Made by a program: the position numbers and the translations under genes | From: Brassica napus | Lineage: Eukaryota > Streptophyta > Magnoliopsida > Brassicales > Brassicaceae | Direction of reading: 5' to 3' | Assembly: GCF_020379485.1 (NCBI RefSeq) | Contig: NW_026015623.1 | Location: 242,972 to 306,971 of the forward strand | Length of the DNA stretch: 64,000 bases | Notes under the pieces: generated by a model | The model's database searches: none | What the model saw: the letters and a program-made list of their open reading frames with translations, nothing else | What the model was told of the DNA's origin: nothing | In this document: positions 7,442 to 49,940 of the stretch, one piece after another | How positions within the stretch are numbered: the stretch's first letter is position 1 | How the letters are laid out: every line of letters begins with the position of its first letter

Positions 7442-7964
7442 TGTTGAGATAAGAGAATAAAGTGTTGAGATGAGGAGATGAAGAGTTGATACATGGATAG
7501 ATGAAGGGATTTGGAGCAGGTAGTAACTTTGGAGATTTACCACAGTAACTTTATTGTTACTGTGGTAACTAAGTTAAAAGACTTGAGAAGTTACCTTGCA
7601 TCCATTTGGAGAGTGGAACACGACATGGGGAGTCTGGATAAGCAAGGAGGAGTTTGGATAAGGTCTGGTCAAGGGAAGAGAGCTTTAGACAGGCTGGCAC
7701 CAGCTGGAAAGCTAAAGCAAGATGCCCAAGCATGTGAGGAACCTTATTGGCTGGTTTGAATGAGGCATCTTTGACTACACATGCTTCTTATCCTAACTAG
7801 ACTGAACCATCACGAAAATATGTATCTCTTATCTATATATGTTGTAAACTCTCTCATTAATCAAGCTAATGGAGTTTTGAGTCTCTCTCTCTCTTGTTCT
7901 TAATCTCCAATCTCTTTAATTCTCAGATTAAACTTCATCACTTTTTAAATCACTAAATCTAATA
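7442..7964 (+). repeat. CopD 5' LTR
   Basis: It starts TGTTGAGATAAGAG and ends AAATCTAATA. A TATA-type box lies at 7834-7840. In the position where the CopA-C LTRs have CCGTACA clusters it has a long inverted repeat (7537-7568). No difference from the 3' LTR was seen. Confidence 0.95.
7537..7568 (+). promoter_or_regulatory. Perfect 13-bp inverted repeat in CopD LTR
   Basis: TTACCACAGTAAC (7537-7549), a 6-base spacer TTTATT, then GTTACTGTGGTAA (7556-7568). It is also in the 3' LTR at 12772-12803. It could be a dimeric protein-binding site or a DNA/RNA hairpin; the function is not known. Confidence 0.6.
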
Positions 7965-8226
7965 TGGTATCAGAGCCAGGTTGCTTTAAAAGGAGAGAGT
8001 GATTTCGTGGTTCCAAATGTTCTTGAGTGTTCTTGAGAGTTCTTGAGATTTTTCAAGAGCTAGATCCTTTAAAAGTCAAGTTTGTGTCTGTTGGTGTTTC
8101 TTTTGGAGAGTCAGCTTCAAGGGAGTCTCTGTAGGCGTTTGACAAGGTCAGAAGAGGGGTCTAGCTTGTGGTTAAGCTTGGCGTGTGAGATTAGAAGCAG
8201 TTGAGTGAAGATCTAGGCTAAAGAAG
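7965..8226 (+). other. CopD primer-binding site and leader
   Basis: TGGTATCAGAGCCAGG starts at 7965 directly after the LTR. The rest of the leader has no recognisable gene. Confidence 0.8.
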
Positions 8227-9063
8227 ATGGAGCTGCTTCAATCTGGTACAACAAGGTGTGAAGAGAAGAAAGAGAGAGGGAATGAGTGGGAGTGGTTCTC
8301 ACAGATGAAAACAACTCTGAAAAGGTGTGGAGTTTGGAGAAACCATGAGAAGGAAGAGTCTTTGAAGGGTAAAGCTGCTGAGAAAGATCAGACAGCAAGA
8401 GAAACAAATGGAGATTGCTTTAGTCTTGAAGAAAGTACACTGCTTGAGAAGATTGAAGATGTTTATGAGGACAAGATCAGTCTTAGGAGAGTGTATGAAG
8501 TCAAGAAGGTGATTAGTGAAGTTAAACCAGGAAGAGAAGGGTTTAATAACCATGTGAGGAAGCTACAACATTTGTGGGTTGAACTACAAGGGTTGAGATC
8601 CCATGTGGATGGGGATACTACACAAGAGCAAGCGATGGTGCTGAAGCTCTTGGCGAGTATGGAGTCATCATATGGGTGGCTGGTGGAGATGGTTCTAAGA
8701 GGGGAACAGCTTCCGGAAATGGAAGAGGTCTGTGTGCTTATAAGAAGGGCGTATGGGATAATGAGAGATGATGAGAGGCTAACCATGAGTAGGAGTGAGA
8801 GCTCATGGAAGCCAACTGGGAGTAGGAGTGAGAGCTTCCAGAAGCTAACCATGAGTAGGAGTGAGAGCTCATGGAGGCTAACCGGGAGTAGGAGTGAGGG
8901 CTTCCGGAAGAGGAGGAGGTGCAGAATGCTATCCAAAGCTTCTATCAACATAGGAAAGGGTAGAAGAGAGAGTTGTGGGAGAGTGTTCTTACTCAGCCTA
9001 CATGGGGGAATCAGTAGAAGACAGTGGGGTGTTAAAAGAGCAGGAGAAAGGGAGTGGAGCTGA
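8227..9063 (+). CDS. CopD Gag, diverged and without zinc knuckle
   Basis: This is a 278-codon frame starting at ATG 8227. The middle (about residues 75-175) still resembles the other Gags here: VYEDKISLRRVYEVKK aligns with the VYGN...RVFEVK region and LPEMEEVC with LPDLEDVC. The N-terminus is diverged. Where the others have a CCHC zinc knuckle, this one has four 11-residue repeats rich in SRSES (8781-8910), then a basic stretch (KRRRCR). It overlaps the pol frame, which is +1 relative to it, between 8954 and 9063. Gag should form the particle shell; loss of the knuckle suggests a different RNA-binding mode or dependence on other elements, which is inference. Confidence 0.8.
   Translation: MELLQSGTTRCEEKKERGNEWEWFSQMKTTLKRCGVWRNHEKEESLKGKAAEKDQTARETNGDCFSLEESTLLEKIEDVYEDKISLRRVYEVKKVISEVKPGREGFNNHVRKLQHLWVELQGLRSHVDGDTTQEQAMVLKLLASMESSYGWLVEMVLRGEQLPEMEEVCVLIRRAYGIMRDDERLTMSRSESSWKPTGSRSESFQKLTMSRSESSWRLTGSRSEGFRKRRRCRMLSKASINIGKGRRESCGRVFLLSLHGGISRRQWGVKRAGEREWS
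8781..8910 (+). repeat. Four 33-bp tandem repeats in CopD gag
   Basis: Units start at 8781, 8814, 8847 and 8880 (the last is slightly short). Units 1 and 3 are one type and units 2 and 4 another, so the array looks like a duplicated 66-bp pair. They encode 11-residue units with the core SRSES. Confidence 0.85.
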
Positions 9064-12000
9064 TGATCGCATCACCAGGAAGGAATGGAGAGTGTTCATG
9101 GAACAAGTACAAGCCTTAGCAGCAAGCAGGAAGCAGGCTATACAATCCGGAGCTTCTAAACCCATTGTGATTGATTCTGGAGCAAGTCATCATATGATCA
9201 GTGATAGGAGGCTTATAAGTGAGATCAAGGCTGCAACAGGGAGTGTTATGATAGCTAATGGTGCCATGATCCCAATAGAAGGAGTGGGAAAGCTAAAACT
9301 GTTTGAGAAGGACACGGCTGCCTTCTACATGCCTCAGTTCACTTCAAATCTATTATCTGTGAAGAAAGCTACCATTGATCTTGATTGTCAAGTAGTATTC
9401 AGACCTGATGAAGTTGAGTTTCAAGATTTGAAGACTGGGAGAGTTATTGGCAGAGGAGACAGCAAGAATCAGCTATACCACCTCGACTTGGCTAAGACCT
9501 CTAATCCCTTTGATTCTATTTGCTTGAGTAGTACTGCTGAGAAGATTGATAGTATTACTTGGCATGCTAGATTAGGACATCCTCATGCTCGTGCCATTGA
9601 ATTGATAATCCCTAATATGTCATTCAATCACTTGAATTGTGAAGCATGCATATTAGGAAAGCATTGTAGGACTGTTTTCCCAACATCTGAGACTACTTAT
9701 GAGCATTGCTTTGATCTAGTTCACTCGGATGTGTGGACCGCTCCATGCATGTCTAGAGACAGCCATAAATACTTTGTGACATTCATTGATGAGAAGTCTA
9801 AGTATACATGGCTCACATTGCTTCCATCTAAAGATAGGGTGCTAGAAGCTTTTATGAACTTCCAAGCATATGTATCTAATCAATACAATGCCACTGTGAA
9901 GGTACTGAGATCAGACAACGGAGGTGAATACATCAGCAATGCCTTTAAGAGTCATCTAGCCAAGCATGGGATTGTGCATCAGACCAGTTGTCCCTACACA
10001 CCACAGCAGAATGGTGTAGCTGAGAGGAAGAATAGGCACTTGATGGAGGTTGCTAGGTCGATGATGTTTCATGCAAATGTCCCAAAACGCTTTTGGGGAG
10101 ATGCTGTACAAACTGCTTGCTATCTCATCAACCGAGTCCCAACCAAGATACTGAAGAATCTGTCTCCATTTGAGGTGCTGAATAAGAGCAAGCCTTTTAT
10201 TGATCACCTACGAGTATTTGGGTGTGTGTGCTATGTCATGACTCCAGGAGAACAGAGAAACAAGCTGGAGGCAAAGAGTACTAAGGCTATGTTCATTGGA
10301 TACTCTATCACTCAGAAGGGATACAAGTGCTATGATCCTGAAGCAAGGAGAGTGATGGTATCTAGAGAAGTGAAGTTTATTGAATCAAAAGGATATTATG
10401 AAGAAAAGGAGTGGGAAAATCTGAAGGATTTGTCTCAAGCTCCATCTGATAGAGCAACAACACTGAGGGTGATGTTGGAGAAGCTAGGGATAGGGTTATC
10501 CCAGGATCAGGAATCTGGAAGAAGAGAGTCTTCCAATCCGACTAGTGAAGCTGAAAGAGCAACTCCTCTTGATCATGAGAGGGGGAATGGAACTGAATCT
10601 CATGAGCAAGTGCAAAATCAAGAAGATTCAGGCCAGCATAATCAAGAGGTGACACAGGAAGTAGAGACTGGTGCTCAGTCTAGTGGAGATGGGCAAAGAG
10701 AGTCTACTGGCTCAGATGAGAGTGGAGAGTGGGAAGGAGATCCTAATGGTTCAAATGAGAGTGGTGCTCAATCAAGTGAAGATGGGCAAGAGCCACAAGA
10801 AGAACAGGTTCAGGAGCTAAGGAGGAGCACAAGGGTGAAGAGAGATGCTTCCAACTGGGTAAACACGAGAGTGTACTACAATGCCCAGGCTGTGGAGCAT
10901 CCTTCTCAAGCTATGTGTTCCTTTGCAGAGTTTCCGGACGAGCATACAGCCTTCACAGTAAGCTTGGATGAGAGCTATATTCCAAGGACATATGAAGAAG
11001 CTATGGCTTTAAAGGAGTGGAGAGAGTCAGTTGCTGATGAGTCTGGAGCCATGATTAAGAATGAAACGTGGTATGAAAGTGAGCTGCCTAAAGGGAAGAA
11101 GGCAGTGACTAGTAAATGGGTGTTCACAATCAAGTTTCATCCTGATGGGAGAATAGAGAGGCGCAAGTCTAGGTTGGTGGCAAGAGGATTTACTCAGACA
11201 TATGGTGAGGACTATGTTGAGACCTTTGCTCCTGTGGCTAAACTTCATACTATCAGGATTGTATTATCTTTAGCTGTGAATCTTGAGTGGGATTTGTGGC
11301 AAATGGATGTGAAGAATGCATTCCTTCAAGGAGAGTTGGAAGATGAAGTATACATGCATCCACCACCAGGCCTTGAACATCTAGTAAAGAAGGGTAATGT
11401 GTTGAGGTTGAGGAAAGCTATCTATGGTCTCAAGCAGTCTCCAAGGGCGTGGTACAACAAGTTGAGTACTACACTGAATGGGAGAGGGTTCAGAAAGTCA
11501 GAATTGGATCACACTCTCTTTACCCTAACCACCTCATCTGGTATTGTGGTGTTGCTTGTGTATGTGGATGATATTATCATCACAGGCAGTGATAAGGAAG
11601 GCATCAAGGATACAAAGGAGTATCTCAAGGCAAGCTTTGAGATTAAAGACTTAGGGGAAATGAAGTATTTTCTTGGGATTGAGATATGCAGATCAAAGGA
11701 AGGATTGTTTATGTCCCAAAGGAAGTATGTGATTGATCTCTTGAAGGGAGCAGATGCCTATGGAGGAAAGACAGCCAAGATGCCAATGGAGGATGGTTAC
11801 AAGGTTCCACGTGAGGGGGAGATTGAGGATAGCAAGCCGTTCCATGATCCTAAGCTATATAGGAAGCTGGTGGGGAAGTTGATTTATCTCACCATTACTA
11901 GACCTGATGTGTGTTTTGCGGTGAATCAAGTCAGTCAACACATGCAAGTTCCTAAGGAGCACCATTGGCAGATGGTGGAAAGGATCTTGATGTATCTGAA

Positions 12001-12529
12001 TGGAACTACTGGTCTTGGAGTATGGATGGGATGTAACAAGAGTACTGAGGTTGTAGGCTATTGTGATGCAGATTGGGCTGGAGACCGAGCAGACAGAAGA
12101 TCAACCACAGGCTATTGTACATTCATTGGTGGTAACTTGGTCACTTGGAAGAGTAAGAAGCAGAAGGTAGTGTCTTGCTCCAGTGCTGAGGCCGAGTATA
12201 GAGCAATGCTGAAGCTTACAAATGAGCTAGTGTGGATAAAAGGGATTTTGAAGCATCTGGAGATTATTCAAGCAACGCCAATGACAATGCATTGTGATAA
12301 TCAAGCAGCTATCCACATTGCATCTAATTCTGTGTTCCATGAGAGAACAAAGCACATTGAGGTTGATTGTCACAAGGTGAGGCAGATGATGATTCTTGGG
12401 GTGATTCTACCTTGTTATACTCGGAGTGAGGATCAGTTAGCAGATGTGTTCACAAAGGCAGCAAGGCAAAAGACAATGGAGTCCATACACATCAGGTTAG
12501 GACTCATTGATCTCTCGCCTAAGGACTAG
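9002..12529 (+). CDS. CopD Pol: protease-integrase-RT-RNase H
   Basis: The frame is open from 8954 and the first ATG is at 9002, giving about 1175 codons; a start in this frame may instead depend on frameshifting from gag. Parts in order: protease DSGASHHM (Asp codon at 9173), GAG-pre-integrase motif WHARLGHPHA, integrase with DVWTAP, SDNGGEY and AERKN, RT with MDVKNAFLQG and YVDD (11561-11572), and RNase H with YCDADWAG, SSAEAEYRA and CDNQAAIH. No stop or frameshift lies inside. Catalytic residues are present, so the enzymes look functional. Plant copia elements usually have gag and pol in one frame, so the split is unusual. Confidence 0.9.
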   Translation: MGESVEDSGVLKEQEKGSGADDRITRKEWRVFMEQVQALAASRKQAIQSGASKPIVIDSGASHHMISDRRLISEIKAATGSVMIANGAMIPIEGVGKLKLFEKDTAAFYMPQFTSNLLSVKKATIDLDCQVVFRPDEVEFQDLKTGRVIGRGDSKNQLYHLDLAKTSNPFDSICLSSTAEKIDSITWHARLGHPHARAIELIIPNMSFNHLNCEACILGKHCRTVFPTSETTYEHCFDLVHSDVWTAPCMSRDSHKYFVTFIDEKSKYTWLTLLPSKDRVLEAFMNFQAYVSNQYNATVKVLRSDNGGEYISNAFKSHLAKHGIVHQTSCPYTPQQNGVAERKNRHLMEVARSMMFHANVPKRFWGDAVQTACYLINRVPTKILKNLSPFEVLNKSKPFIDHLRVFGCVCYVMTPGEQRNKLEAKSTKAMFIGYSITQKGYKCYDPEARRVMVSREVKFIESKGYYEEKEWENLKDLSQAPSDRATTLRVMLEKLGIGLSQDQESGRRESSNPTSEAERATPLDHERGNGTESHEQVQNQEDSGQHNQEVTQEVETGAQSSGDGQRESTGSDESGEWEGDPNGSNESGAQSSEDGQEPQEEQVQELRRSTRVKRDASNWVNTRVYYNAQAVEHPSQAMCSFAEFPDEHTAFTVSLDESYIPRTYEEAMALKEWRESVADESGAMIKNETWYESELPKGKKAVTSKWVFTIKFHPDGRIERRKSRLVARGFTQTYGEDYVETFAPVAKLHTIRIVLSLAVNLEWDLWQMDVKNAFLQGELEDEVYMHPPPGLEHLVKKGNVLRLRKAIYGLKQSPRAWYNKLSTTLNGRGFRKSELDHTLFTLTTSSGIVVLLVYVDDIIITGSDKEGIKDTKEYLKASFEIKDLGEMKYFLGIEICRSKEGLFMSQRKYVIDLLKGADAYGGKTAKMPMEDGYKVPREGEIEDSKPFHDPKLYRKLVGKLIYLTITRPDVCFAVNQVSQHMQVPKEHHWQMVERILMYLNGTTGLGVWMGCNKSTEVVGYCDADWAGDRADRRSTTGYCTFIGGNLVTWKSKKQKVVSCSSAEAEYRAMLKLTNELVWIKGILKHLEIIQATPMTMHCDNQAAIHIASNSVFHERTKHIEVDCHKVRQMMILGVILPCYTRSEDQLADVFTKAARQKTMESIHIRLGLIDLSPKD

Positions 12530-12676
12530 TCTATACACTCTCCTGATCATGTGATCTCTACTCTTTCCTCATTAAGGTTTTGTCCCAATGGGTTTTCCTT
12601 AATGAGGTTTTAATGAGGGAGATCTCATGGTTCTTCCAAGCTTGACTTGTTTCACATGGTCAAGCTTGAGGGGGAG
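12530..12676 (+). other. CopD 3' untranslated region and polypurine tract
   Basis: It contains the conserved stem-loop (12567-12607) and ends in the polypurine tract AAGCTTGAGGGGGAG (12662-12676), which abuts the 3' LTR and would prime plus-strand DNA synthesis. Confidence 0.85.
12567..12607 (+). other. Conserved 3' stem-loop, CopD
   Basis: CCTCATTAAGG (12567-12577) and CCTTAATGAGG (12597-12607) form a perfect 11-bp stem. The 19-base loop contains GTCCCAATGGG. It starts 38 bases after the pol stop. The element recurs in every complete retroelement here, with compensating arm changes. Confidence 0.75.
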
Positions 12677-13199
12677 TGTTGAGATAAGAGAATAAAGTGT
12701 TGAGATGAGGAGATGAAGAGTTGATACATGGATAGATGAAGGGATTTGGAGCAGGTAGTAACTTTGGAGATTTACCACAGTAACTTTATTGTTACTGTGG
12801 TAACTAAGTTAAAAGACTTGAGAAGTTACCTTGCATCCATTTGGAGAGTGGAACACGACATGGGGAGTCTGGATAAGCAAGGAGGAGTTTGGATAAGGTC
12901 TGGTCAAGGGAAGAGAGCTTTAGACAGGCTGGCACCAGCTGGAAAGCTAAAGCAAGATGCCCAAGCATGTGAGGAACCTTATTGGCTGGTTTGAATGAGG
13001 CATCTTTGACTACACATGCTTCTTATCCTAACTAGACTGAACCATCACGAAAATATGTATCTCTTATCTATATATGTTGTAAACTCTCTCATTAATCAAG
13101 CTAATGGAGTTTTGAGTCTCTCTCTCTCTTGTTCTTAATCTCCAATCTCTTTAATTCTCAGATTAAACTTCATCACTTTTTAAATCACTAAATCTAATA
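12677..13199 (+). repeat. CopD 3' LTR
   Basis: It matches the 5' LTR over 523 bp with no difference seen. It is followed by the GATAA duplication and the return of CopC. Confidence 0.95.
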
Positions 13200-16668: not shown

Positions 16669-16808
16669 TCCCCTAAGTCATGAGGTCTTTACTCTTTTTC
16701 CCTCATCAAAGTTTTGTCCCAATGGGTTTTCTTTGGTGAGGTTTTTAATGAGGAAGATCTCATGGCTGTCCAAGCTTAGACTGTCACAAAGCTAAGCTTG
16801 AGGGGGAG
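16669..16808 (+). other. CopC 3' untranslated region and polypurine tract
   Basis: It contains the conserved stem-loop (16701-16741) and the polypurine tract AAGCTTGAGGGGGAG at 16794-16808. Confidence 0.85.
16701..16741 (+). other. Conserved 3' stem-loop, CopC
   Basis: CCTCATCAAAG (16701-16711) pairs with CTTTGGTGAGG (16731-16741) with one G-T wobble. The loop contains GTCCCAATGGG. Confidence 0.72.
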
Positions 16809-18516: not shown

Positions 18517-18656
18517 TCCCCTTAGTCATGAGATCTTTACTCTTTTTCCCTCATTAAGTTTTTGTCCCAATGGGTTTTCCTTAGTGAGGTTTTTAATGAG
18601 GAAGATCTCATGGCTGTCCAAGCTTAGTCTTTCACAAAGCTAAGCTTGAGGGGGAG
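18517..18656 (+). other. CopB 3' untranslated region and polypurine tract
   Basis: It holds the conserved stem-loop and the polypurine tract AAGCTTGAGGGGGAG (18642-18656). Confidence 0.85.
18549..18589 (+). other. Conserved 3' stem-loop, CopB
   Basis: CCTCATTAAG (18549-18558) pairs with CTTAGTGAGG (18580-18589) with one G-T wobble. The loop contains GTCCCAATGGG. It starts 33 bases after the pol stop. Confidence 0.72.
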
Positions 18657-20884: not shown

Positions 20885-21838
20885 TGTTAACTTGAAGAAA
20901 CGAAATGGAGACAAAGGAGAAGTATGGAGGAGTTGGTGTCTAGTGCAAAGATAGGGCAAGTCTTATAGAGATTGTCTATCAAGCTTCAGAAGTGTCTGAT
21001 GAGCTCCAGAAGTGTTCTAAGGGCTGTCCAAAGATAGGGTTTAAGTCCAGGAGGGACTTAGACATCATTTGGAGAGAATTGGGTGATGGTGCAAAGATAG
21101 GGCGTCCCGGAAGTTCAGACGGTACGGACGGTACGGACGGACCGTGCAAACTTAGGGCGATCCAAACCGAGGCAAGTTCGACCGTTGGAGATGTTTGGGC
21201 GAGGCGTGCAAAAATAGGGCGCTGGTTCATCATAAAGATAGGCGACCTGATCTGATTGTATTTGGGGACCAGTTATGGATAAGGCACAGCAAGGAGTGAG
21301 CTGGCGTGAGCTGTCCCTTGGCTGTATATTGACCATGAATCTGGACACAAGGGAGACTACATTCATGGGCGCCTAAGATGATCCAATCAGAGGCCAGCCC
21401 TCCCTTTGACCAGATTCAAATCAACCAATCAAGCAACATCAGCCCTCATCCAATCACAAGAGATCACACAGATTGCAAGACCAACTTTCCATCTTAGCCA
21501 TCCATACATTTCAAGTTAATATTATCCATTAGATTTAGGTTTCAGATTGTGTAAACCTATTGAGCTTATAAATAAGCATGTAAGTGGCGATTTGGAGCCT
21601 TAAGAGAGTATGGGGGGTTTCCCCATCTCCTTCATAATTATAAAAGTGTGTTCTTGATCAGATTCCCTTAATCTACCCCTTTCTTAGTCTCTAATCTCTT
21701 AATCTCTCAAAGTCTCTTTGTTTCTGATTCAAGTTCATACTAGTTTCATCAGACCTCTTATTCAACTAGTTCAAGACCTTATCTTTGCCTTTAATGGCTT
21801 TTCTTACACATACACAGCCAGAGCTCTCAAATCTCACA
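20885..21838 (+). repeat. CopF 5' LTR
   Basis: It starts TGTTAACTTGAAG and ends AATCTCACA. A TATA-type box (TATAAATA) is at 21567-21574. Two GTACGG motifs, 9 bp apart, lie at 21122-21136. Confidence 0.95.
21122..21136 (+). promoter_or_regulatory. Paired GTACGG motifs in CopF LTR
   Basis: GTACGG at 21122 and 21131 lies inside a repeated 9-base unit GGTACGGAC. The 3' LTR copy is at 24223-24237. It matches the reverse of CCGTAC seen in other LTRs. Confidence 0.45.
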
Positions 21839-23985
21839 TGGTATCAGAGCCAGGTTCATCAGAACCTGAGCTGAGCTTCCGCAAATCCACAGCTCTCATC
21901 TCAGCTCAAACCAAACCCTTGAAGTCATATCCATCCGAGTTCAGCTCTTGAAGAAGAAGAGACTTGAAGCCGTGGAGTGTTATCCTGTCCCTCAAGCCGT
22001 TTCTGTCTGTACCTGATGGAGAGAGTCTCATTGGAAGCAAAGGAGGATGGAGAGGCGTCATGAACCTCAAGCCAAAACTCCTTGTCCAAGAGCTTGTTAC
22101 ATCCGTCTACAAGAAAGATGAAGTGAAGAAAAGCCGGCTTGATAGTATGGAGCAAGGAGGGGTCTTTGGGTGTGAGAAACAAGAAGGAGGCCATGAGTAG
22201 AAGGAGGAGAGGCTGGGTAACGATCCATACTCTCATGTCCAACAAAACCGTGAGCCAAAAGCCATTGGAGGTTCAAGGAACCAAACCGGTTCCTTGGCTG
22301 TAAGCTAATACTATCCCTTCTTGATTATGAGCTTGTGTTGTGTTATTGCCTGGTTATTGTGATGTGTATTGATTGTGAAACCTGAGGATAATGTGATTGC
22401 TAAATATAATTAGTTGAATCTGTCCCAGGATGCTTTAAAGGCTTGTTTAGTGTTTAAAGAGTAAATGCTTGCCCCTGTTAAGTAATGAGTTTGCTAAATG
22501 CTAAATGGTATTGTTAGAATCTCATGAACTTAAAACAGATTGAAAGTAATGCATTGTCTGATGTTATGTGATGATAGTAATGCTTAGCCTCAGTTATAAA
22601 TGAATGTGTGATGAATTGTATTGTTGCATTCATGAATTGAAACTGATTAAGGTTAGTGCATACTGTCAAATGGCTGTCTTACATTGAAGCATTAGATTCA
22701 TGTCTAAATGTTGAGTAAAGAAGCTTTAAAAAATTGCCTAAGTAGCTTGTATTGAATCTGTTATGATCTTACTTGTGCTCAGAGAGTTAGCTTGCAAAGA
22801 TTAGAACTTGAAAATGACTTGTTTAATCTGTTGCAATGCTTGTGATATTGGGAATCAAACTTGATGATTAATCAAGGAATGATCCCAATACTATTGTGTC
22901 TTATCTTTGCTGGAGTTTGAGTGATGTTTCAGGTACACTAGATGTGTTCTTAGTTCATCATCAATCCAAGTTGAAAGAGGAAGACTTTGCCCATTGTGTG
23001 GAGCAATGGAGAGATGAGAAAGAAGTGGTGATGCGCCACTGGTGTGTAGTCTCACTGAAGCTCACTTGCAAGCTTGGACCTATACTCAATCCAAGCTTGA
23101 GGAGGGGAGTTTAGTGAGCTATCAGTCGGACCAAGAAGGTTCAGAAGGTCCATTGCAAGCAACTGAAGAAGAAGGAGCCATCCGGGTCTAGGCAGTGGCG
23201 TGTCTAGGCAAGAGAGTGTTCAGAGCACTCTTGGCTGTGAGAAGATGAAGACTCTATCAGTGCAGCTTCTAGGATGAGGTGGCTGAAGAGGTAGCTGAAG
23301 CTTCCACAAGCACTCCATGAAGATGGCGAGTTCAAAAGGTGTTGCAATGGAGTAATGGTGCAGATCATGAAGCTATCCATCCAAGCTTGTTCCTGTGAGA
23401 GTCTCAAGCTTGAGGGGGAGTGTTGAAGCTTACATGATCTGAGAGTACTTGGTGGTTATTCAAGAAGAGGAGCAGATCAGTTATGAAGCATAATGAAGGA
23501 TGAAGAAGCAATCACCAATGCGGCCTCTAGAGTGAGGTGATTGGTACTACAGTCTGAAGCATCCTGTCATGAAGGTTTCAGTAACATGGTGGTGACTCAT
23601 GAAGAAGAAGCAGCCAAGACTCAGCTTGTATCTATCAAGGAAGATCTGGTAGTCCGAGCACTTGATACACAACAAGAAGGTTGTGAGAAAGAGGGAGAGA
23701 CCAAGATCTGTCTGAAGAAGAGTACAAGAAGTGTTGATGATGAGCAAGAGGAGTGGGTTCTATCTTGCATCACACGAGGGCCATGATCCAGAGTCTTTGT
23801 GTCCCTTACATTGTTGGTAAGGCACAAAGACTCACTGGCCAATCCCTAGGCCTTGGAGACTTTACTCTTTTTCCCTCATCAAGGTTTTGTCCCAAAGGGT
23901 TTTCCTTGCTGAGGTTTTTAATGAGGAAGTTCTTCAAGGTTCCAAGCTTGACTTAGGATCAGCTAAAGTCAAGCTTGAGGGGGAG
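21839..23985 (+). other. CopF non-coding interior
   Basis: The primer-binding site TGGTATCAGAGCC begins at 21839. Around 22027 a short stretch could encode GSKGGWRG, similar to the GSKGLW of the Gag N-termini, perhaps a gag remnant. From about 22310 to 22920 the DNA is AT-rich without genes. A second polypurine-like AAGCTTGAGGGGGAG followed by TGTTGAAG is at 23406-23428, well before the terminal one (23971-23985). Small open frames here have no similarity I recognise and are not called as genes. Confidence 0.8.
23874..23914 (+). other. Conserved 3' stem-loop, CopF
   Basis: CCTCATCAAGG (23874-23884) pairs with CCTTGCTGAGG (23904-23914) with one mismatch. The loop is GTCCCAAAGGG-type. It is kept although CopF encodes no pol. 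Confidence 0.7.
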
Positions 23986-24939
23986 TGTTAACTTGAAGAA
24001 ACGAAATGGAGACAAAGGAGAAGTATGGAGGAGTTGGTGTCTAGTGCAAAGATAGGGCAAGTCTTATAGAGATTGTCTATCAAGCTTCAGAAGTGTCTGA
24101 TGAGCTCCAGAAGTGTTCTAAGGGCTGTCCAAAGATAGGGTTTAAGTCCAGGAGGGACTTAGACATCATTTGGAGAGAATTGGGTGATGGTGCAAAGATA
24201 GGGCGTCCCGGAAGTTCAGACGGTACGGACGGTACGGACGGACCGTGCAAACTTAGGGCGATCCAAACCGAGGCAAGTTCGACCGTTGGAGATGTTTGGG
24301 CGAGGCGTGCAAAAATAGGGCGCTGGTTCATCATAAAGATAGGCGACCTGATCTGATTGTATTTGGGGACCAGTTATGGATAAGGCACAGCAAGGAGTGA
24401 GCTGGCGTGAGCTGTCCCTTGGCTGTATATTGACCATGAATCTGGACACAAGGGAGACTACATTCATGGGCGCCTAAGATGATCCAATCAGAGGCCAGCC
24501 CTCCCTTTGACCAGATTCAAATCAACCAATCAAGCAACATCAGCCCTCATCCAATCACAAGAGATCACACAGATTGCAAGACCAACTTTCCATCTTAGCC
24601 ATCCATACATTTCAAGTTAATATTATCCATTAGATTTAGGTTTCAGATTGTGTAAACCTATTGAGCTTATAAATAAGCATGTAAGTGGCGATTTGGAGCC
24701 TTAAGAGAGTATGGGGGGTTTCCCCATCTCCTTCATAATTATAAAAGTGTGTTCTTGATCAGATTCCCTTAATCCACCCCTTTCTTAGTCTCTAATCTCT
24801 TAATCTCTCAAAGTCTCTTTGTTTCTGATTCAAGTTCATACTAGTTTCATCAGACCTCTTATTCAACTAGTTCAAGACCTTATCTTTGCCTTTAATGGCT
24901 TTTCTTACACATACACAGCCAGAGCTCTCAAATCTCACA
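23986..24939 (+). repeat. CopF 3' LTR
   Basis: 954 bp, with one difference from the 5' copy seen. CCTTG follows at 24940-24944. Confidence 0.95.
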
Positions 24940-29970: not shown

Positions 29971-30117
29971 CTGAAGTGTGAAGTGTGCGCAAAGCTGTGA
30001 AGTGTTGCTGCACCTATTAGGCCGTGATCCAGAGCTTCTTGTGTCCAACCACACTGGTTCTAAGGCACAAGAGCTCACTGGCCAATCCCTAGGCTTTGGA
30101 GAGCTCTACTCTTTTTC

Positions 30118-30156
30118 CCTTGCAAGGTTTTGTCCCAATGGGTTTTCCTTGTAAGG
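30118..30156 (+). other. Conserved 3' stem-loop, CopG
   Basis: CCTTGCAAGG (30118-30127) pairs with CCTTGTAAGG (30147-30156) with one G-T wobble. The loop contains GTCCCAATGGG. It is kept without any pol gene, which points to a role in cis. Confidence 0.72.
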
Positions 30157-30228
30157 TTTTTAATGAGGGAGACTCTTCAGAGTTCCAAGCTTGGCTTAGG
30201 ATCTCCTAAAGTCAAGCTTGAGGGGGAG

Positions 30229-31902: not shown

Positions 31903-32042
31903 GCCCCTTAGCTATGAGGTCTTTACTCTTTTTCCCTTATCAAAGTTTTGTCCCAATGGGTTTTCTTTGATGAGGTTTTTAATGAGGAAGATCTCATGGC
32001 TATCCAAGCTTAGACTTTCACAAAGCTAAGCTTGAGGGGGAG
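31903..32042 (+). other. CopA 3' untranslated region and polypurine tract
   Basis: It contains the conserved stem-loop (31935-31975) and the polypurine tract AAGCTTGAGGGGGAG at 32028-32042. Confidence 0.85.
31935..31975 (+). other. Conserved 3' stem-loop, CopA
   Basis: CCTTATCAAAG (31935-31945) pairs with CTTTGATGAGG (31965-31975) with one G-T wobble. The loop contains GTCCCAATGGG. It starts 33 bases after the pol stop. Confidence 0.72.
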
Positions 32043-32663: not shown

Positions 32664-33366
32664 GATAAATCTCATAGGAGTTGGCATGAAGAAGTTATCC
32701 CACTTTCAAATCAGGTGATTCCAATTTCCCAGTTTGGGAATAGCACAGCTTCTTCATCGTTCCAATCAAACCAGGATGAATCTCTTTGTGAAAAGCTTGA
32801 TTTGGATACATAAAGTGGTGGAGAATCACCAGGAAGTTGAATAAATCTCATAGGAGTTGGCATGAAGAAGTTATCCCACTTTCAAATCAGGAGATTCCAG
32901 TTTCCCAGTTTGGGAATAGCACAACTTCATCGTCGTTCCAAACAAACCAGGATGAATCACTTTGTAAGAAGCTTGATTTGGATACATAAAGTGGTGGAGA
33001 ATCACCAGGAAGTTGAATAAATCTCATAGGAGTTGGCATGAAGAAATTATCCCACTTTCAAATCAGGTGATTCCAGTTTCCCAGTTTGGGAATAGCACAG
33101 CTTCTTCGTCGTTCCAATCAAACCAGGATGAATCTCTTTGTGAAAAGCTTGATTTGGATACATAATGTTGTGGAGAATCACCAGGAAGTTGGATAAATCT
33201 CATAGGAGTTGGCATGAAGAAGTTATCCCACTTTCAAATCAGGTGATTCCAGTTTCCCAGTTGGGAATAGCACAGCTTCTTCGTCGTTCCAAACAAACCA
33301 GGATGAATCACTTTGTAAGAAGCTTGATTTGGATACATAAAGTGGTGGAGAATCACCAGGAAGTTG
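32664..33366 (+). repeat. CentBr-type satellite, four monomers
   Basis: 703 bp, almost exactly four 176-bp units, between CopA and CopE. Monomers 1 and 3 share TCTCTTTGTGAAAAGC, while 2 and 4 share CCAAACAAACC and TTTGTAAGAAGC, so the block has a two-monomer pattern. It is more diverged than the main array. Confidence 0.9.
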
Positions 33367-33987
33367 TATAAGTTTTAGAGAATCTGAGTTTGATATAAGG
33401 AAAGAAAGAGATTAGAAAGAGTCTAGAGGTTATTTAGGACGAGTTTAGCTAAGAGTTTAGTGTATGATCATGATTGAGAGCCTTTGAGTCTAAGAGATTG
33501 TTTTAGTGTCAAGAACTGTCTGATTATCATTAATGAAGAGTTTACAAATATATAGGAGAAGATACAAGGGTTTTCCTAAAGGTAAAGTAAGCAAAGCATG
33601 TGAAGTCAAGGAAGAGCTAGGCGCCGGTTTCAAACTAAGCCAATGGGAGACTCCACATGTGTGGGATGAATGGATAAGGTTGCTTTCCCTTTCCAGCTGC
33701 ATACAGCCTGTCAAGCCGCGGCCTTATCCTTCTCTCAACGGTCTGATCAAGTGCTGGTAACTCTCCATAGTTACCATCACCCTTTTCACAAGTAACCATC
33801 CTGAATAGTGAAGAGTATTACCCAAGACTTGTACGGCCACTCCTCATGTACGGCCTGTACGGATTGTACGGACTAAGCCTCCTCAATCCCTTTCTTCCTA
33901 ATGCTTCACCACTTCATACCCTCTCCTCACATACATTACTCAACACTTCATCTCATGATCTCATCTCAAAGTGATCTCATCTCAACA
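33367..33987 (-). repeat. CopE 3' LTR
   Basis: 621 bp, reading TGTTGAGATGAG to AAACTTATA on the minus strand. A CCGTACA cluster is at 33830-33871. The polypurine tract lies next to it at 33988-34002. Confidence 0.95.
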
Positions 33988-34054
33988 CTCCCCCTCAAGC
34001 TTAGCTTTGTGAAAGTCTAAGCTTGGATAGCCATGAGATCTTCCTCATTAAAAA

Positions 34055-34095
34055 CCTCACCAAAGAAAACCCATTGGGACAAAACTTTGATAAGG
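34055..34095 (-). other. Conserved 3' stem-loop, CopE
   Basis: On the minus strand CCTTATCAAAG (34095-34085) pairs with CTTTGGTGAGG (34065-34055) through wobble pairs. The loop contains GTCCCAATGGG. It starts about 30 bases after the pol stop. Confidence 0.7.
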
Positions 34096-34127
34096 GAAAA
34101 AGAGTAAAGACCTCATAGCTAAGGGGC

Positions 34128-38685: not shown

Positions 38686-39296
38686 TATAAGTTTTAGAGA
38701 ATCTGAGTTTGATATAAGGAAAGAAAGAGATTAGAAAGAGTCTAGAGGTTATTTAGGACGAGTTTAGCTAAGAGTTTAGTGTATGATCATGATTGAGAGC
38801 CTTTGAGTCTAAGAGATTGTTTTAGTGTCAAGAACTGTCTGATTATCATTAATGAAGAGTTTACAAATATATAGGAGAAGATACAAGGGTTTTCCTAAAG
38901 GTAAAGTAAGCAAAGCATGTGAAGTCAAGGAAGAGCTAGGCGCCGGTTTCAAACTAAGCCAATGGGAGACTCCACATGTGTGGGATGAATGGATAAGGTT
39001 GCTTTCCCTTTCCAGCTGCATACAGCCTGTCAAGCCGCGGTCTTATCCTTCTCTCAACGGTCTGATCAAGTGCTGGTAACTCTCCATAGTTACCATCACC
39101 CTTTTCACAAGTAACCATCCTGAATAGTGAAGAGTATTACCCAAGACTTGTACGGCCACTCCTCATGTACGGCCTGTACGGATTGTACGGACTAAGCCTC
39201 CTCAATCCCTTTCTTCACCACTTCATACTCTCTCCTCACATACATTACTCAACACTTCATCTCATGATCTCATCTCAAAGTGATCTCATCTCAACA
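38686..39296 (-). repeat. CopE 5' LTR
   Basis: 611 bp. Relative to the 3' LTR it lacks 10 bases near 39215 and has about two substitutions. A TATA-type box is at 38873-38867 and a CCGTACA cluster at 39149-39190. Confidence 0.94.
39149..39190 (-). promoter_or_regulatory. CCGTACA cluster in CopE 5' LTR
   Basis: Four CCGTACA motifs on the minus strand with the same 9, 9 and 17-bp spacing as CopA, upstream of the TATA-type box. The role is inferred. Confidence 0.55.
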
Positions 39297-42200
39297 AGTT
39301 GAATAAATCTCATAGGAGTTGGCAAGAAGAAGTTATCCCACTTTCAAATCAGGTGATTCCAGTTTCCCCGTTTGGGAATAGCACAGCTTCTTCGTCGTTC
39401 CAATCAAACCAGGATGAATCACTTTGTGAGAAGCTTGATTTGGATACATAAAGTGGTGGAGAATCACCAGGAAGTTGAATAAATCTCATAGGAGTTGGCA
39501 TGAAGAAGTTATCCCACTTTCAAATCAGGTGATTCCAGTTTCCCAGTTTGGGAATAGCACAGCTTCTTCGTCGTTCCAATCAAACCAGGATGAATCACTT
39601 TGTAAGAAGCTTGATTTGGATACATAAAGTGGTGGAGAATCACCAGGAAGTTGAATAAATCTCATAGGAGTTGGCATGAAGAAGTTATCCCACTTTCAAA
39701 TCAGGTGATTCCAGTTTCCCAGTTTGGGAATAGCACAGCTTCTTCGTCGTTCCAATCAAACCAGGATGAATCACTTTGTGAAAGCTTGATTTGGATACAT
39801 AAAGTGGTGGAGAATCACCAGGAAGTTGAATAAATCTCATAGGAGTTGGCATGAAGAAGTTATCCCACTTTCAAATCAGGTGATTCCAGTTTCCCAGTTT
39901 GGGAATAGCACAGCTTCTTCGTCGTTCCAATCAAACCAGGATGAATCACTTTGTAAGAAGCTTGATTTGGATACATAAAGTGGTGGAGAATCACCAGGAA
40001 GTTGAATAAATCTCATAGGAGTTGGCATGAAGAAGTTATCCCACTTTCAAATCAGGTGATTCCAGTTTCCCAGTTTGGGAATAGCACAGCTTCTTCGTCG
40101 TTCCAATCAAACCAGGATGAATCACTTTGTAAGAAGCTTGATTTGGATACATAAAGTGGTGGAGAATCACCAGGAAGTTGAATAAATCTCATAGGAGTTG
40201 GCATGAAGAAGTTATCCCACTTTCAAATCAGGTGATTCCAGTTTCCCAGTTTGGGAATAGCACAGCTTCTTCGTCGTTCCAATCAAACCAGGATGAATCA
40301 CTTTGTGAGAAGCTTGATTTGGATACATAAAGTGGTGGAGAATCACCAGGAAGTTGAATAAATCTCATAGGAGTTGGCATGAAGAAGTTATCCCACTTTC
40401 AAATCAGGTGATTCCAGTTTCCCAGTTTGGGAATAGCACAGCTTCTTCGTCGTTCCAATCAAACCAGGATGAATCACTTTGTAAGAAGCTTGATTTGGAT
40501 ACATAAAGTGGTGGAGAATCACCAGGAAGTTGAATAAATCTCATAGGAGTTGGCATGAAGAAGTTATCCCACTTTCAAATCAGGTGATTCCAGTTTCCCA
40601 GTTTGGGAATAGCACAGCTTCTTCGTCGTTCCAATCAAACCAGGATGAATCACTTTGTAAGAAGCTTGATTTGGATACATAAAGTGGTGGAGAATCACCA
40701 GGAAGTTGAATAAATCTCATAGGAGTTGGCATGAAGAAGTTATCCCACTTTCAAATCAGGTGATTCCAGTTTCCCAGTTTGGGAATAGCACAGCTTCTTC
40801 GTCGTTCCAATCAAACCAGGATGAATCACTTTGTGAGAAGCTTGATTTGGATACATAAAGTGGTGGAGAATCACCAGGAAGTTGAATAAATCTCATAGGA
40901 GTTGGCATGAAGAAGTTATCCCACTTTCAAATCAGGTGATTCCAGTTTCCCAGTTTGGGAATAGCACAGCTTCTTCGTCGTTCCAATCAAACCAGGATGA
41001 ATCACTTTGTAAGAAGCTTGATTTGGATACATAAAGTGGTGGAGAATCACCAGGAAGTTGAATAAATCTCATAGGAGTTGGCATGAAGAAGTTATCCCAC
41101 TTTCAAATCAGGTGATTCCAGTTTCCCAGTTTGGGAATAGCACAGCTTCTTCGTCGTTCCAATCAAACCAGGATGAATCACTTTGTAAGAAGCTTGATTT
41201 GGATACATAAAGTGGTGGAGAATCACCAGGAAGTTGAATAAATCTCATAGGAGTTGGCATGAAGAAGTTATCCCACTTTCAAATCAGGTGATTCCAGTTT
41301 CCCAGTTTGGGAATAGCACAGCTTCTTCGTCGTTCCAATCAAACCAGGATGAATCACTTTGTGAAAAGCTTGATTTGGATACATAAAGTGGTGGAGAATC
41401 ACCAGGAAGTTGAATAAATCTCATAGGAGTTGGCATGAAGAAGTTATCCCACTTTCAAATCAGGTGATTCCAGTTTCCCAGTTTGGGAATAGCACAGCTT
41501 CTTCGTCGTTCCAATCAAACCAGGATGAATCACTTTGTAAGAAGCTTGATTTGGATACATAAAGTGGTGGAGAATCACCAGGAAGTTGAATAAATCTCAT
41601 AGGAGTTGGCATGAAGAAGTTATCCCACTTTCAAATCAGGTGATTCCAGTTTCCCAGTTTGGGAATAGCACAGCTTCTTCGTCGTTCCAATCAAACCAGG
41701 ATGAATCACTTTGTAAGAAGCTTGATTTGGATACATAAAGTGGTGGAGAATCACCAGGAAGTTGAATAAATCTCATAGGAGTTGGCATGAAGAAGTTATC
41801 CCACTTTCAAATCAGGTGATTCCAGTTTCCCAGTTTGGGAATAGCACAGCTTCTTCGTCGTTCCAATCAAACCAGGATGAATCACTTTGTGAAAAGCTTG
41901 ATTTGGATACATAAAGTGGTGGAGAATCACCAGGAAGTTGAATAAATCTCATAGGAGTTGGCATGAAGAAGTTATCCCACTTTCAAATCAGGTGATTCCA
42001 GTTTCCCAGTTTGGGAATAGCACAGCTTCTTCGTCGTTCCAATCAAACCAGGATGAATCACTTTGTGAAAAGCTTGATTTGGATACATAAAGTGGTGGAG
42101 AATCACCAGGAAGTTGAATAAATCTCATAGGAGTTGGCATGAAGAAGTTATCCCACTTTCAAATCAGGTGATTCCAGTTTCCCAGTTTGGGAATAGCACA

Positions 42201-45200
42201 GCTTCTTCGTCGTTCCAATCAAACCAGGATGAATCACTTTGTAAGAAGCTTGATTTGGATACATAAAGTGGTGGAGAATCACCAGGAAGTTGAATAAATC
42301 TCATAGGAGTTGGCATGAAGAAGTTATCCCACTTTCAAATCAGGTGATTCCAGTTTCCCAGTTTGGGAATAGCACAGCTTCTTCGTCGTTCCAATCAAAC
42401 CAGGATGAATCACTTTGTGAAAAGCTTGATTTGGATACATAAAGTGGTGGAGAATCACCAGGAAGTTGAATAAATCTCATAGGAGTTGGCATGAAGAAGT
42501 TATCCCACTTTCAAATCAGGTGATTCCAGTTTCCCAGTTTGGGAATAGCACAGCTTCTTCGTCGTTCCAATCAAACCAGGATGAATCACTTTGTAAGAAG
42601 CTTGATTTGGATACATAAAGTGGTGGAGAATCACCAGGAAGTTGAATAAATCTCATAGGAGTTGGCATGAAGAAGTTATCCCACTTTCAAATCAGGTGAT
42701 TCCAGTTTCCCAGTTTGGGAATAGCACAGCTTCTTCGTCGTTCCAATCAAACCAGGATGAATCACTTTGTAAGAAGCTTGATTTGGATACATAAAGTGGT
42801 GGAGAATCACCAGGAAGTTGAATAAATCTCATAGGAGTTGGCATGAAGAAGTTATCCCACTTTCAAATCAGGTGATTCCAGTTTCCCAGTTTGGGAATAG
42901 CACAGCTTCTTCGTCGTTCCAATCAAACCAGGATGAATCACTTTGTGAGAAGCTTGATTTGGATACATAAAGTGGTGGAGAATCACCAGGAAGTTGAATA
43001 AATCTCATAGGAGTTGGCATGAAGAAGTTATCCCACTTTCAAATCAGGTGATTCCAGTTTCCCAGTTTGGGAATAGCACAGCTTCTTCGTCGTTCCAATC
43101 AAACCAGGATGAATCACTTTGTAAGAAGCTTGATTTGGATACATAAAGTGGTGGAGAATCACCAGGAAGTTGAATAAATCTCATAGGAGTTGGCATGAAG
43201 AAGTTATCCCACTTTCAAATCAGGTGATTCCAGTTTCCCAGTTTGGGAATAGCACAGCTTCTTCGTCGTTCCAATCAAACCAGGATGAATCACTTTGTAA
43301 GAAGCTTGATTTGGATACATAAAGTGGTGGAGAATCACCAGGAAGTTGAATAAATCTCATAGGAGTTGGCATGAAGAAGTTATCCCACTTTCAAATCAGG
43401 TGATTCCAGTTTCCCAGTTTGGGAATAGCACAGCTTCTTCGTCGTTCCAATCAAACCAGGATGAATCACTTTGTGAAAAGCTTGATTTGGATACATAAAG
43501 TGGTGGAGAATCACCAGGAAGTTGAATAAATCTCATAGGAGTTGGCATGAAGAAGTTATCCCACTTTCAAATCAGGTGATTCCAGTTTCCCAGTTTGGGA
43601 ATAGCACAGCTTCTTCGTCGTTCCAATCAAACCAGGATGAATCACTTTGTGAGAAGCTTGATTTGGATACATAAAGTGGTGGAGAATCACCAGGAAGTTG
43701 AATAAATCTCATAGGAGTTGGCATGAAGAAGTTATCCCACTTTCAAATCAGGTGATTCCAGTTTCCCAGTTTGGGAATAGCACAGCTTCTTCGTCGTTCC
43801 AATCAAACCAGGATGAATCACTTTGTGAGAAGCTTGATTTGGATACATAAAGTGGTGGAGAATCACCAGGAAGTTGAATAAATCTCATAGGAGTTGGCAT
43901 GAAGAAGTTATCCCACTTTCAAATCAGGTGATTCCAGTTTCCCAGTTTGGGAATAGCACAGCTTCTTCGTCGTTCCAATCAAACCAGGATGAATCACTTT
44001 GTAAGAAGCTTGATTTGGATACATAAAGTGGTGGAGAATCACCAGGAAGTTGAATAAATCTCATAGGAGTTGGCATGAAGAAGTTATCCCACTTTCAAAT
44101 CAGGTGATTCCAGTTTCCCAGTTTGGGAATAGCACAGCTTCTTCGTCGTTCCAATCAAACCAGGATGAATCACTTTGTGAGAAGCTTGATTTGGATACAT
44201 AAAGTGGTGGAGAATCACCAGGAAGTTGAATAAATCTCATAGGAGTTGGCATGAAGAAGTTATCCCACTTTCAAATCAGGTGATTCCAGTTTCCCAGTTT
44301 GGGAATAGCACAGCTTCTTCGTCGTTCCAATCAAACCAGGATGAATCACTTTGTAAGAAGCTTGATTTGGATACATAAAGTGGTGGAGAATCACCAGGAA
44401 GTTGAATAAATCTCATAGGAGTTGGCATGAAGAAGTTATCCCACTTTCAAATCAGGTGATTCCAGTTTCCCAGTTTGGGAATAGCACAGCTTCTTCGTCG
44501 TTCCAATCAAACCAGGATGAATCACTTTGTGAGAAGCTTGATTTGGATACATAAAGTGGTGGAGAATCACCAGGAAGTTGAATAAATCTCATAGGAGTTG
44601 GCATGAAGAAGTTATCCCACTTTCAAATCAGGTGATTCCAGTTTCCCAGTTTGGGAATAGCACAGCTTCTTCGTCGTTCCAATCAAACCAGGATGAATCA
44701 CTTTGTGAGAAGCTTGATTTGGATACATAAAGTGGTGGAGAATCACCAGGAAGTTGAATAAATCTCATAGGAGTTGGCATGAAGAAGTTATCCCACTTTC
44801 AAATCAGGTGATTCCAGTTTCCCAGTTTGGGAATAGCACAGCTTCTTCGTCGTTCCAATCAAACCAGGATGAATCACTTTGTGAGAAGCTTGATTTGGAT
44901 ACATAAAGTGGTGGAGAATCACCAGGAAGTTGAATAAATCTCATAGGAGTTGGCATGAAGAAGTTATCCCACTTTCAAATCAGGTGATTCCAGTTTCCCA
45001 GTTTGGGAATAGCACAGCTTCTTCGTCGTTCCAATCAAACCAGGATGAATCACTTTGTGAGAAGCTTGATTTGGATACATAAAGTGGTGGAGAATCACCA
45101 GGAAGTTGAATAAATCTCATAGGAGTTGGCATGAAGAAGTTATCCCACTTTCAAATCAGGTGATTCCAGTTTCCCAGTTTGGGAATAGCACAGCTTCTTC

Positions 45201-48200: not shown

Positions 48201-49001
48201 CAATCAAACCAGGATGAATCACTTTGTGAGAAGCTTGATTTGGATACATAAAGTGGTGGAGAATCACCAGGAAGTTGAATAAATCTCATAGGAGTTGGGA
48301 TGAAGAAGTTATCCCACTTTCAAATCAGGTGATTCCAGTTTCCCAGTTTGGGAATAGCACAGCTTCTTCGTCGTTCCAATCAAACCAGGATGAATCACTT
48401 TGTGAGAAGCTTGATTTGGATACATAAAGTGGTGGAGAATCACCAGGAAGTTGAATAAATCTCATAGGAGTTGGGATGAAGAAGTTATCCCACTTTCAAA
48501 TCAGGTGATTCCAGTTTCCCAGTTTGGGAATAGCACAGCTTCTTCGTCGTTCCAATCAAACCAGGATGAATCACTTTGTGAGAAGCTTGATTTGGATACA
48601 TAAAGTGGTGGAGAATCACCAGGAAGTTGAATAAATCTCATAGGAGTTGGGATGAAGAAGTTATCCCACTTTCAAATCAGGTGATTCCAGTTTCCCAGTT
48701 TGGGAATAGCACAGCTTCTTCGTCGTTCCAATCAAACCAGGATGAATCACTTTGTGAGAAGCTTGATTTGGATACATAAAGTGGTGGAGAATCACCAGGA
48801 AGTTGAATAAATCTCATAGGAGTTGGGATGAAGAAGTTATCCCACTTTCAAATCAGGTGATTCCAGTTTCCCAGTTTGGGAATAGGACAGCTTCTTCGTC
48901 ATTCCAATCAAACCAGGATGAATCATTTTGTGAGAAGCTTGATATGGATACATAAAGTGGTGGAAAATCACCAGGAAGTTGAATAAATCTCATAGGAGTT
49001 G
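39297..49001 (+). repeat. CentBr-type centromeric satellite array, left block
   Basis: About 55 head-to-tail monomers of 176 bp (successive starts at 39301, 39477 and 39653). Each has one HindIII site (AAGCTTGATTT) and a small dyad TTCCCAGTTTGGGAA. Monomers are nearly identical; differences sit at a few sites (TTTGTAAG/TTTGTGAG/TTTGTGAAA and GGCATGAAG/GGGATGAAG). The left part shows a three-monomer pattern; the right part is more uniform. A three-base insertion gives a 179-bp unit near 45841. The sequence corresponds to the Brassica centromeric repeat I know as CentBr; such arrays bind the centromeric histone in Brassica. No gene is present: short open frames result from one-base deletions. 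Confidence 0.93.
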
Positions 49002-49940
49002 TGATACAAGCCTAAGCTATCAAAGGCCGTACGTTCCCAAGCAAGAGAGAAGGAGCCGATCTAACACAAGGGTGATCCGGATGGACTGATCTAATCAACC
49101 AAGGGATCTGAACTGGAACTGTATGATGGGATGAAGTGCACCACACGAGAGATGGGGAGGCTCGTGATACAACACAAGGTTCCTCTAGGCCGTGGAGGTA
49201 CTGGTCTCACAAGGCAAAGAGAAGGAGGCGAGTTCTAGCTTGAGAGCTCTAGGGTTTTCTTTAAAAGAAAAGTTTATGATTATTCAAAGTCTGCCCCAAA
49301 AGTGGGCTTGCGAAAACATATAAATAGGACTAAGGGAACAGGCTCCACTTAGGTCACGAAAGTACAAATAAGGAAACAAACTATAATGTAAAACATGAAA
49401 TAAGGTCATGAGGCTTCTTAGCCTTGGATCGAACTTGGCACTTGGGATAAGTGTGAAGCAAGTTGTGGCCTCGTTAAAAACCTTCTCTGGAAAACCCATT
49501 TGGGACAAAACCAAGAGTAAGGGAAAAAGAGCACACACAAAGAGCTTGGCCTAGTTGCTAGATTCGTCCAAGAGACTTGCTAGGCAAGTTGATCTTCCAT
49601 GGTAATGATCATCAGGTTGGTGTGGCATTGCTCCGGGATGAATGGCCACATATCCTCACTTGATGCTTGTTTCTCCTTAACCGGTTCTGCACCCTTTAGT
49701 TCATCTTGCTTCAAGCTTGGTTCACCAGCCAGTTTAACCTGTCCAAGATCAGAAGCAAGTATCATGCTCTCATTAAATTTATGTTGAAGTACCTTAGCTC
49801 TTTGTCTAGTGATAGCTCCCTTGAATACGGTTGGTACTGGCACTTCTTGGACTGTCTCTGATTTGGTTATGTTGCTGATCATGTCCTGGATATCAGGTTC
49901 AGTTAAGTCTGGTTCCGGCTCTGGTTGAATGTCCTCATCA
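49002..49940 (-). repeat. Gypsy 3' LTR, with the end of gag-pol
   Basis: On the minus strand it reads TGATGAGGAC to GCTTGTATCA. Its first 361 bases encode the last 119 or so residues of the polyprotein. A polypurine tract (GAAGAGGGAGGGAA on the minus strand) lies just outside at 49941-49954, inside the coding frame. It also carries the conserved stem-loop block and one CCGTAC. Confidence 0.94.
49469..49531 (-). other. Conserved 3' block in gypsy LTR
   Basis: The minus strand reads CTCTTTTTCCCT, then CTCTTGG, GTCCCAAATGGG, CCAGAG and TTTTTAACGAGGC. This is the block seen after pol in the copia elements. CTCTTGG and CCAGAG can pair with one bulge. It begins about 48 bases after the gag-pol stop. 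The 5' LTR copy is at 55442-55504. Confidence 0.65.

Follow-up and report, generated by a model that had tools for sequence, protein, structure and literature searches.

A T-rich stem-loop at positions 12567 to 12607 of the Brassica napus DNA analyzed here, just after the pol stop codon of a copia element, raises the question of what such a structure does there. The window, i.e., the whole 64,000-nucleotide stretch (contig NW_026015623.1, positions 242,972 to 306,971), had been described from its letters as carrying this block in seven copia elements, with a nearly fixed loop and with arms that change together, and a cis-acting RNA or DNA structure serving perhaps in packaging, 3′-end formation, export, or plus-strand priming had been proposed. 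We found the block at all seven of the coordinates given, each in a delimited copia element (CopA to CopG). The loop reads GTCCCAATGGG in six of the seven and GTCCCAAAGGG in CopF, and the arm sequences quoted for CopD, CopA, and CopG in that preliminary description were correct. A looser scan recovered two copies that had been missed, on the minus strand at 55504 and 49531 within CRM-like gypsy LTRs, and a decayed extra copy at 63710, also on the minus strand.

The window is composed of nested LTR elements, in and beside arrays of an approximately 176-bp satellite. All eight delimited elements (seven copia and one gypsy) have paired LTRs and a target duplication of 5 bp, with some LTR ends shifted by up to 4 bases relative to the BLAST ends. 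Identity between the paired LTRs ranged from 98.1 to 100% (e.g., 100% of 602 bp in CopB and 99.6% of 939 bp in the CRM-like element), suggesting that the insertions in the window are young. CopD, which serves as our reference, spans 7442 to 13199 on the plus strand, with LTRs at 7442 to 7964 and 12677 to 13199 that are 100% identical over 523 bp, and it has the 5-bp duplication GATAA. CopF (20885 to 24939) is a 4-kb LTR element with 955-bp LTRs of 99.9% identity and no recognized coding sequence, and it is apparently young. The satellite arrays, at 32665 to 33371, 39296 to 49001, and 55897 to 62687, have copia and CRM-like insertions beside or within them and are probably centromeric.

Folding of stretches of 105 to 121 nt placed the interval 12567 to 12607 as the upper half only (middle stem, upper loop, and tip) of a predicted structure of approximately 90 nt, whose outer stem and lower U-rich loop had been absent from the preliminary description. 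From the outside inward, the predicted layout comprises an outer stem, usually with a one-base bulge, a CUC/GAG pairing, a lower U-rich internal loop (generally UUUUU versus UUUUUAAY), a middle stem mostly of 10 to 12 bp, an upper U-rich internal loop (UUUUGU versus UUUU), and a CCC/GGG tip that closes over 3 or 4 loop bases. In CopD, the whole predicted structure lies at 12545 to 12632 on the plus strand. The arms of its outer stem, examined also in the swap test below, are at 12545 to 12559 and 12618 to 12632; the two sides of its lower loop are at 12564 to 12566 (UUU) and 12608 to 12614 (UUUUAAU); the arms of its middle stem, for which covariation adds to the fold, are at 12567 to 12577 (CCTCATTAAGG) and 12597 to 12607 (CCTTAATGAGG); and the upper loop (UUUUGU/UUUU) with its CCC-AAT-GGG tip occupies 12578 to 12596. 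The 5′ side of the lower loop has five U in the six other copia copies and three in CopD, despite the identical LTRs of the latter; a shortened lower domain may still be sufficient in CopD, or CopD may rely on its upper domain.

Tandem U-rich internal loops with a helix between them, the arrangement that marks a double-domain element for nuclear expression (dENE), are present in these predicted folds. Both loops were predicted in eight of nine window copies; the ninth, the decayed copy (63630 to 63735, minus strand, resembling the 3′-end of CopG), keeps the stems, and its third and fourth U tracts are broken. Two U of the lower loop were paired with A in several minimum-energy folds, but not in the centroids. 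The upper loop and tip are near-invariant, which is partly an effect of the search pattern, and they are also common in loci not selected on the 3′ side. G-C occupies the pair adjoining the upper loop in 32 of the 33 representatives analyzed below and the next pair in 30, although for the fetched loci this was largely imposed by the search pattern.

When compared with 200 shuffles each, the seven copia copies had z scores of −3.0 to −6.6. The predicted folds of CopA (31909 to 32002; z, −6.6), CopB (18523 to 18616; z, −6.3), CopC (16676 to 16767; z, −6.2), CopF (23849 to 23941; z, −3.0), and CopG (30092 to 30184; z, −3.9) lie on the plus strand, as does that of CopD (z, −4.7), and the predicted fold of CopE lies on the minus strand (34028 to 34121; z, −6.0). 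One shuffle was as good as the native sequence for CopF and one for CopG, and none was for the other five. The copy in the 3′ LTR of the CRM-like element (49456 to 49547, minus strand, with its CTC at 49531) was not exceptional (z, 0.0; 100 of 200 shuffles as good), and neither was the decayed copy (z, −0.8; 38 of 200). The range of the copy in the 5′ LTR (55429 to 55520, minus strand) was transferred from that in the 3′ LTR.

The covariation of the arms claimed beforehand held up above a tree-based null. Seventy genome matches, the first ones listed rather than a random draw (as classified by block family, 30 of copia type, 39 of CRM type, and 1 of hAT type), were fetched and combined with eight window copies, and the 77 sequences kept were clustered to 33 representatives; excluded ahead of clustering were the decayed copy, the copy in the 5′ LTR of the CRM-like element, and L052, which contains an internal duplication, and L001 and L002 were unused. 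For the null, an equal number of changes was placed on a FastTree tree in 2000 simulations, and three measures were taken, namely, the number of paired cells, that of additional pair types, and that of pairs showing a double change. The observed values were reached, respectively, in 0, 0, and 131 simulations for all 33 representatives, in 30, 40, and 11 for the 11 copia representatives, in 2, 35, and 41 for the 13 CRM-type sequences, and in 0, 0, and 3 for 7 window sequences, the last being run without CopE, which clusters with CopA. In a fixed register set by the core, several Watson-Crick alternatives were seen at pairs 3 to 7 of the middle stem, such as A-T in 11, T-A in 13, and G-C in 2 representatives at pair 3, where 7 of the 33 were unpaired. 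Of 231 cells, 169 were paired, and this number fell to 120 or 116 when the 3′ arm was shifted by one base.

Swapping of arms among one hand-picked member from each of 14 families gave a similar picture for both stems. Cognate arms paired at −11.3 kcal/mol per pair versus −5.9 (standard deviation [sd], 0.85) for swapped arms in the middle stem, and at −21.2 versus −12.5 (sd, 1.2) in the outer stem, with 0 of 20000 permutations reaching the cognate value in either case. The cognate arm was the best one in 11 of 14 rows for the middle stem and in 10 of 14 for the outer stem. The middle stems of F9 (−3.4) and F10 (−3.3, worse than its non-cognate median of −9.5) were weak, and the outer stems of F4 and F11 were no better than swapped ones. 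RNAalifold applied to a plain MAFFT alignment kept only 8 pairs, in the inner part, with a covariation term of −0.19, we think because stem lengths differ between families; anchored registers were used in place of that alignment.

The mismatches tolerated in the stems bear on the form in which the structure acts. The middle stem had 15 G-U versus 3 A-C cells in 21 of the 33 representatives (the 12 with bulges or another register being left out), and the outer stem had 28 versus 5 in 10 copia representatives. This excess of G-U over A-C suggests that the structure acts as sense RNA rather than as DNA. The cis-acting RNA structure proposed beforehand is supported, and its DNA version, a hairpin or cruciform, is disfavored.

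The block is abundant in the assembly containing the window (GCF_020379485.1, 997 Mb), where pattern counts are lower bounds. The exact core GTTTTGTCCCAN{1,4}GGGTTTTCC had at least 4681 matches versus 0 for the reversed pattern, which argues against a chance origin of the core. Since both sides of the structure are partly specified by the core pattern, a search with the 5′ half only was used as a check. In the first 30 loci of that search, the third U tract was present in 28 and the fourth in 29, and the 3′ arm paired with a z score below −2 in 21. Seventeen of the 30 loci overlapped the exact-core list; among the other 13, the third tract was present in 11 and the fourth in 13. The left-half pattern of that search, CTCTTTTTCCN{3,10}GGTTTTG, had at least 4904 matches versus 4 in the control, a figure that is no clean count of the block, since six of eight extra places fetched for their odd-looking arms (L113 to L118) proved not to be ENEs and five of them were one other repeat. 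That dispersed repeat (L113 to L117) has CTCTTTTTCCTTAGGTTTTG without the rest of the block and offers a natural negative control for half-motif searches. The block patterns had no match in collections of viral contigs and genome contigs, and the Rfam search suggested beforehand gave no match at gathering score in the window.

The distance from the pol stop to the block had been put at 30 to 40 bases, and we obtained 32 to 37 bases to the start point used in that description. Measured from the last base of the stop codon to the CTC opening the block, it was 23 bases in CopA, CopB, CopC, and CopE, 31 in CopD, 48 in the CRM-like element of the window (stop ending at 49580, CTC at 49531), 29 in L073, L074, L076, and L082, and 31 in L078, i.e., 23 to 48 bases in the 11 LTR elements measured. 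In the copia elements of the window, the block is found a short distance upstream of the PPT. In the CRM-like element of the window and in L073, L074, L076, L078, and L082, the ORF ends within the 3′ LTR (in the window, the LTR starts at 49940 on the minus strand and the ORF ends at 49580), and the block comes after it, still inside the LTR; in CRM-type elements, it is found 190 to 410 bases within the LTR, downstream of the PPT. A gag-pol ORF extending into the 3′ LTR is a trait of CRM gypsy elements (PMC3605345), and the gypsy element of the window shows this trait. These spacings indicate that, in the LTR elements measured, the block keeps its place relative to the stop codon rather than to the PPT or to the beginning of the LTR. 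The distance from the stop to the outer stem is 6 to 15 bases in CopA to CopE and 32 in the CRM-like element of the window, a placement that would be early, yet beyond the translated bases.

Copia elements have a second hairpin, located past the ENE and before the PPT, at 12637 to 12669 and at the same place in CopA, CopB, and CopC, and also in L004, L006, and L046. Its arms (AAGCTTGAC/GTCAAGCTT, AAGCTTAG/CTAAGCTT, and AAGCTTAACT/AGTTAAGCTT) seem to change together. The anchor words of this hairpin were complete in 7 of the 33 representatives, all 7 of which folded, in a test run without CopF and CopG because their stretches were too short.

Carriers of the block belong to three transposon classes, as judged from the coding sequence of some loci per family. 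The copia carriers include CopA to CopG in the window, and a further lineage, F9b, has copia pol remnants upstream of the block that are 30 to 38% identical to CopE (L081); F9 was called copia on L081 alone, L077 (F9) having shown no pol. As had been stated beforehand, the block is kept where pol is absent, given that CopF has no recognized gag or pol and CopG has only a gag ORF. CRM-like gypsy carriers are the element in the window, L073, L075, L078, and L080, and the pol-less CRM relatives L074, L076, and L082 keep the block, a gag-like start, and a CRM-like coding end. The LTRs of these three relatives are 99.4 to 100% identical, and among their ORFs (994 aa in L076), those scanned matched no Pfam reverse transcriptase or integrase and no other Pfam family. 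Elsewhere in the same assembly, the block is carried by the hAT family F11 (L104, L095, L105, and L079). In L104, open frames just upstream of the block match PF14372 and PF05699 (1.1e-16 and 1.3e-29, respectively), and the final frame of the transposase extends to 1339, with the block starting at 1501.

Since its architecture is the same as that of published ENEs, the block is very probably a dENE in the 3′ UTR of transposon mRNAs that clasps poly(A). What we computed is the predicted fold, its covariation, the sense-strand bias, the position after the stop, and the distribution among copia, CRM-like, and hAT elements; a triple helix and RNA stabilization in the window copies would follow by analogy with published work on the Evade element. 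The sense RNA would fold into a long hairpin having two U-rich internal loops with G-C pairs at their borders, and the RNA's own poly(A) tail would thread these loops as U-A-U base triples. Clasped in this way, the tail would be shielded from deadenylases at the 3′-end, and the RNA would live longer, possibly yielding more template and protein.

Other roles proposed for the block account for parts of these observations. As a packaging or dimerization signal of retrotransposon RNA, the block would pair two genomic RNAs through its near-palindromic CCCANTGGG tip and bind Gag through its stem. The tip sequence is indeed nearly fixed, partly by the choice of pattern, and the block is kept in pol-less elements, which would need packaging in trans. 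However, the same block adjoins the transposase of hAT elements, a class of DNA transposons that makes no particles, the folds show the tip pairing with itself, and the two U loops would be left without an explanation. A T-rich block guiding the choice of the RNase H primer from upstream of the PPT, i.e., an aid to plus-strand priming, would suit its location in the copia elements of the window, but the CRM-type block is downstream of the PPT inside the LTR, hAT elements carry the block and are without a PPT, and a T-run has no need of stem covariation. Because the block lies beside a hAT transposase and downstream of the PPT in CRM elements, both are disfavored as general roles; we regard packaging as very unlikely and a priming aid as hardly credible.

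U-rich tracts are common protein sites, and the block follows the coding sequence in three transposon classes, both of which are in keeping with a signal for 3′-end formation or nuclear export in which a protein reads the U-rich loops and no poly(A) triplex forms. The paired U tracts with their G-C borders fit a triplex, however, and the Evade ENE RNA mixed with A20 shows a triplex melting phase in vitro (PMC12501189), so that a purely protein-read signal seems highly improbable. The role published for the ENE architecture, protection of the poly(A) tail, is close to 3′-end formation or export as suggested beforehand, but is not the same (PMC12501189).

The caution expressed beforehand about novelty was justified, as this kind of element is already known as the ENE (PMC12501189). 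What the present analysis adds is its abundance, its occurrence in three classes of transposon, and an outer stem that covaries. Compared with the consulted text on Evade, the additions are thousands of copies in one genome and a block that CRM-like elements carry within their LTRs, that persists where pol is missing, and that, with identical core letters, adjoins a hAT transposase. It is possible, and we propose it only tentatively, that one dENE has spread as a portable RNA module among copia, CRM-like gypsy, and hAT elements, which share no replication chemistry, in one plant lineage. Its copies, thousands in number, would include those of young elements inserted in satellite arrays; in its full form, with the outer covarying helix, it would sit soon after the stop and clear of ribosomes, and its U tracts and tip letters would be fixed while its stems were rewritten. 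With the dENE reading, a conserved post-pol block of plant LTR elements becomes a testable RNA-stability device. The distribution also suggests that poly(A) tail protection is not peculiar to Evade and is common to many young copia and CRM-like elements and to some hAT elements. The young, pol-less, and decayed copies, with their various U-tract lengths, form a natural series for gauging ENE strength against transposon success.

Literature searches with sequence words of the block returned no relevant paper among titles and abstract starts, and those on LTR-element stem-loops, packaging, and the PPT did not find the block. The consulted parts of PMC10886601, PMC5445492, and PMC3902901 contain nothing on it; the hairpin described in PMC5445492 belongs to fungal GalEa elements, where it follows the 5′ LTR. 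A 2010 copia study (PMC2829016) reported a conserved non-coding structure near the 3′ LTR, which resembles the present block in kind and location but surrounds the PPT/LTR junction, and the portion consulted mentions no U-rich double loop. Tycowski et al. (2016, via PMC12501189) listed approximately 200 ENEs, mostly from plants and fungi and strongly associated with LTR retrotransposons, an association that our copies share, and parts of the present additions may already be in that list.

Torabi et al. (2021, PDB 7JNH; via PMC12846552, PMC12707130, and PMC10078130) solved the structure of a poly(A)-bound double ENE from the transposase mRNA of a rice hAT element. As described there, upper and lower ENE domains occur in one RNA, as in our block, and the hAT origin matches that of family F11, whereas the host is another one and a solved structure stands against a predicted fold here. 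The closest counterpart is the ENE of Evade (Copia93), for which Li et al. (2025, PMC12501189) reported four U-rich tracts in a fold-back between the ORF and the 3′ LTR. Triplex formation by this ENE depends on its U tracts and on the G-C pairs next to them; the ENE raises reporter expression, its deletion lowers RNA stability, extrachromosomal DNA, and copy number, and the deadenylase CCR4a counteracts it (PMC12501189). In architecture, the present block is like the Evade ENE, being located in the spacer between the ORF and the 3′ LTR of copia LTR elements, with four U-rich tracts in one fold-back and G-C pairs beside the tracts; unlike the Evade ENE as described in that text, it is carried here by many families, including CRM-like and hAT elements.
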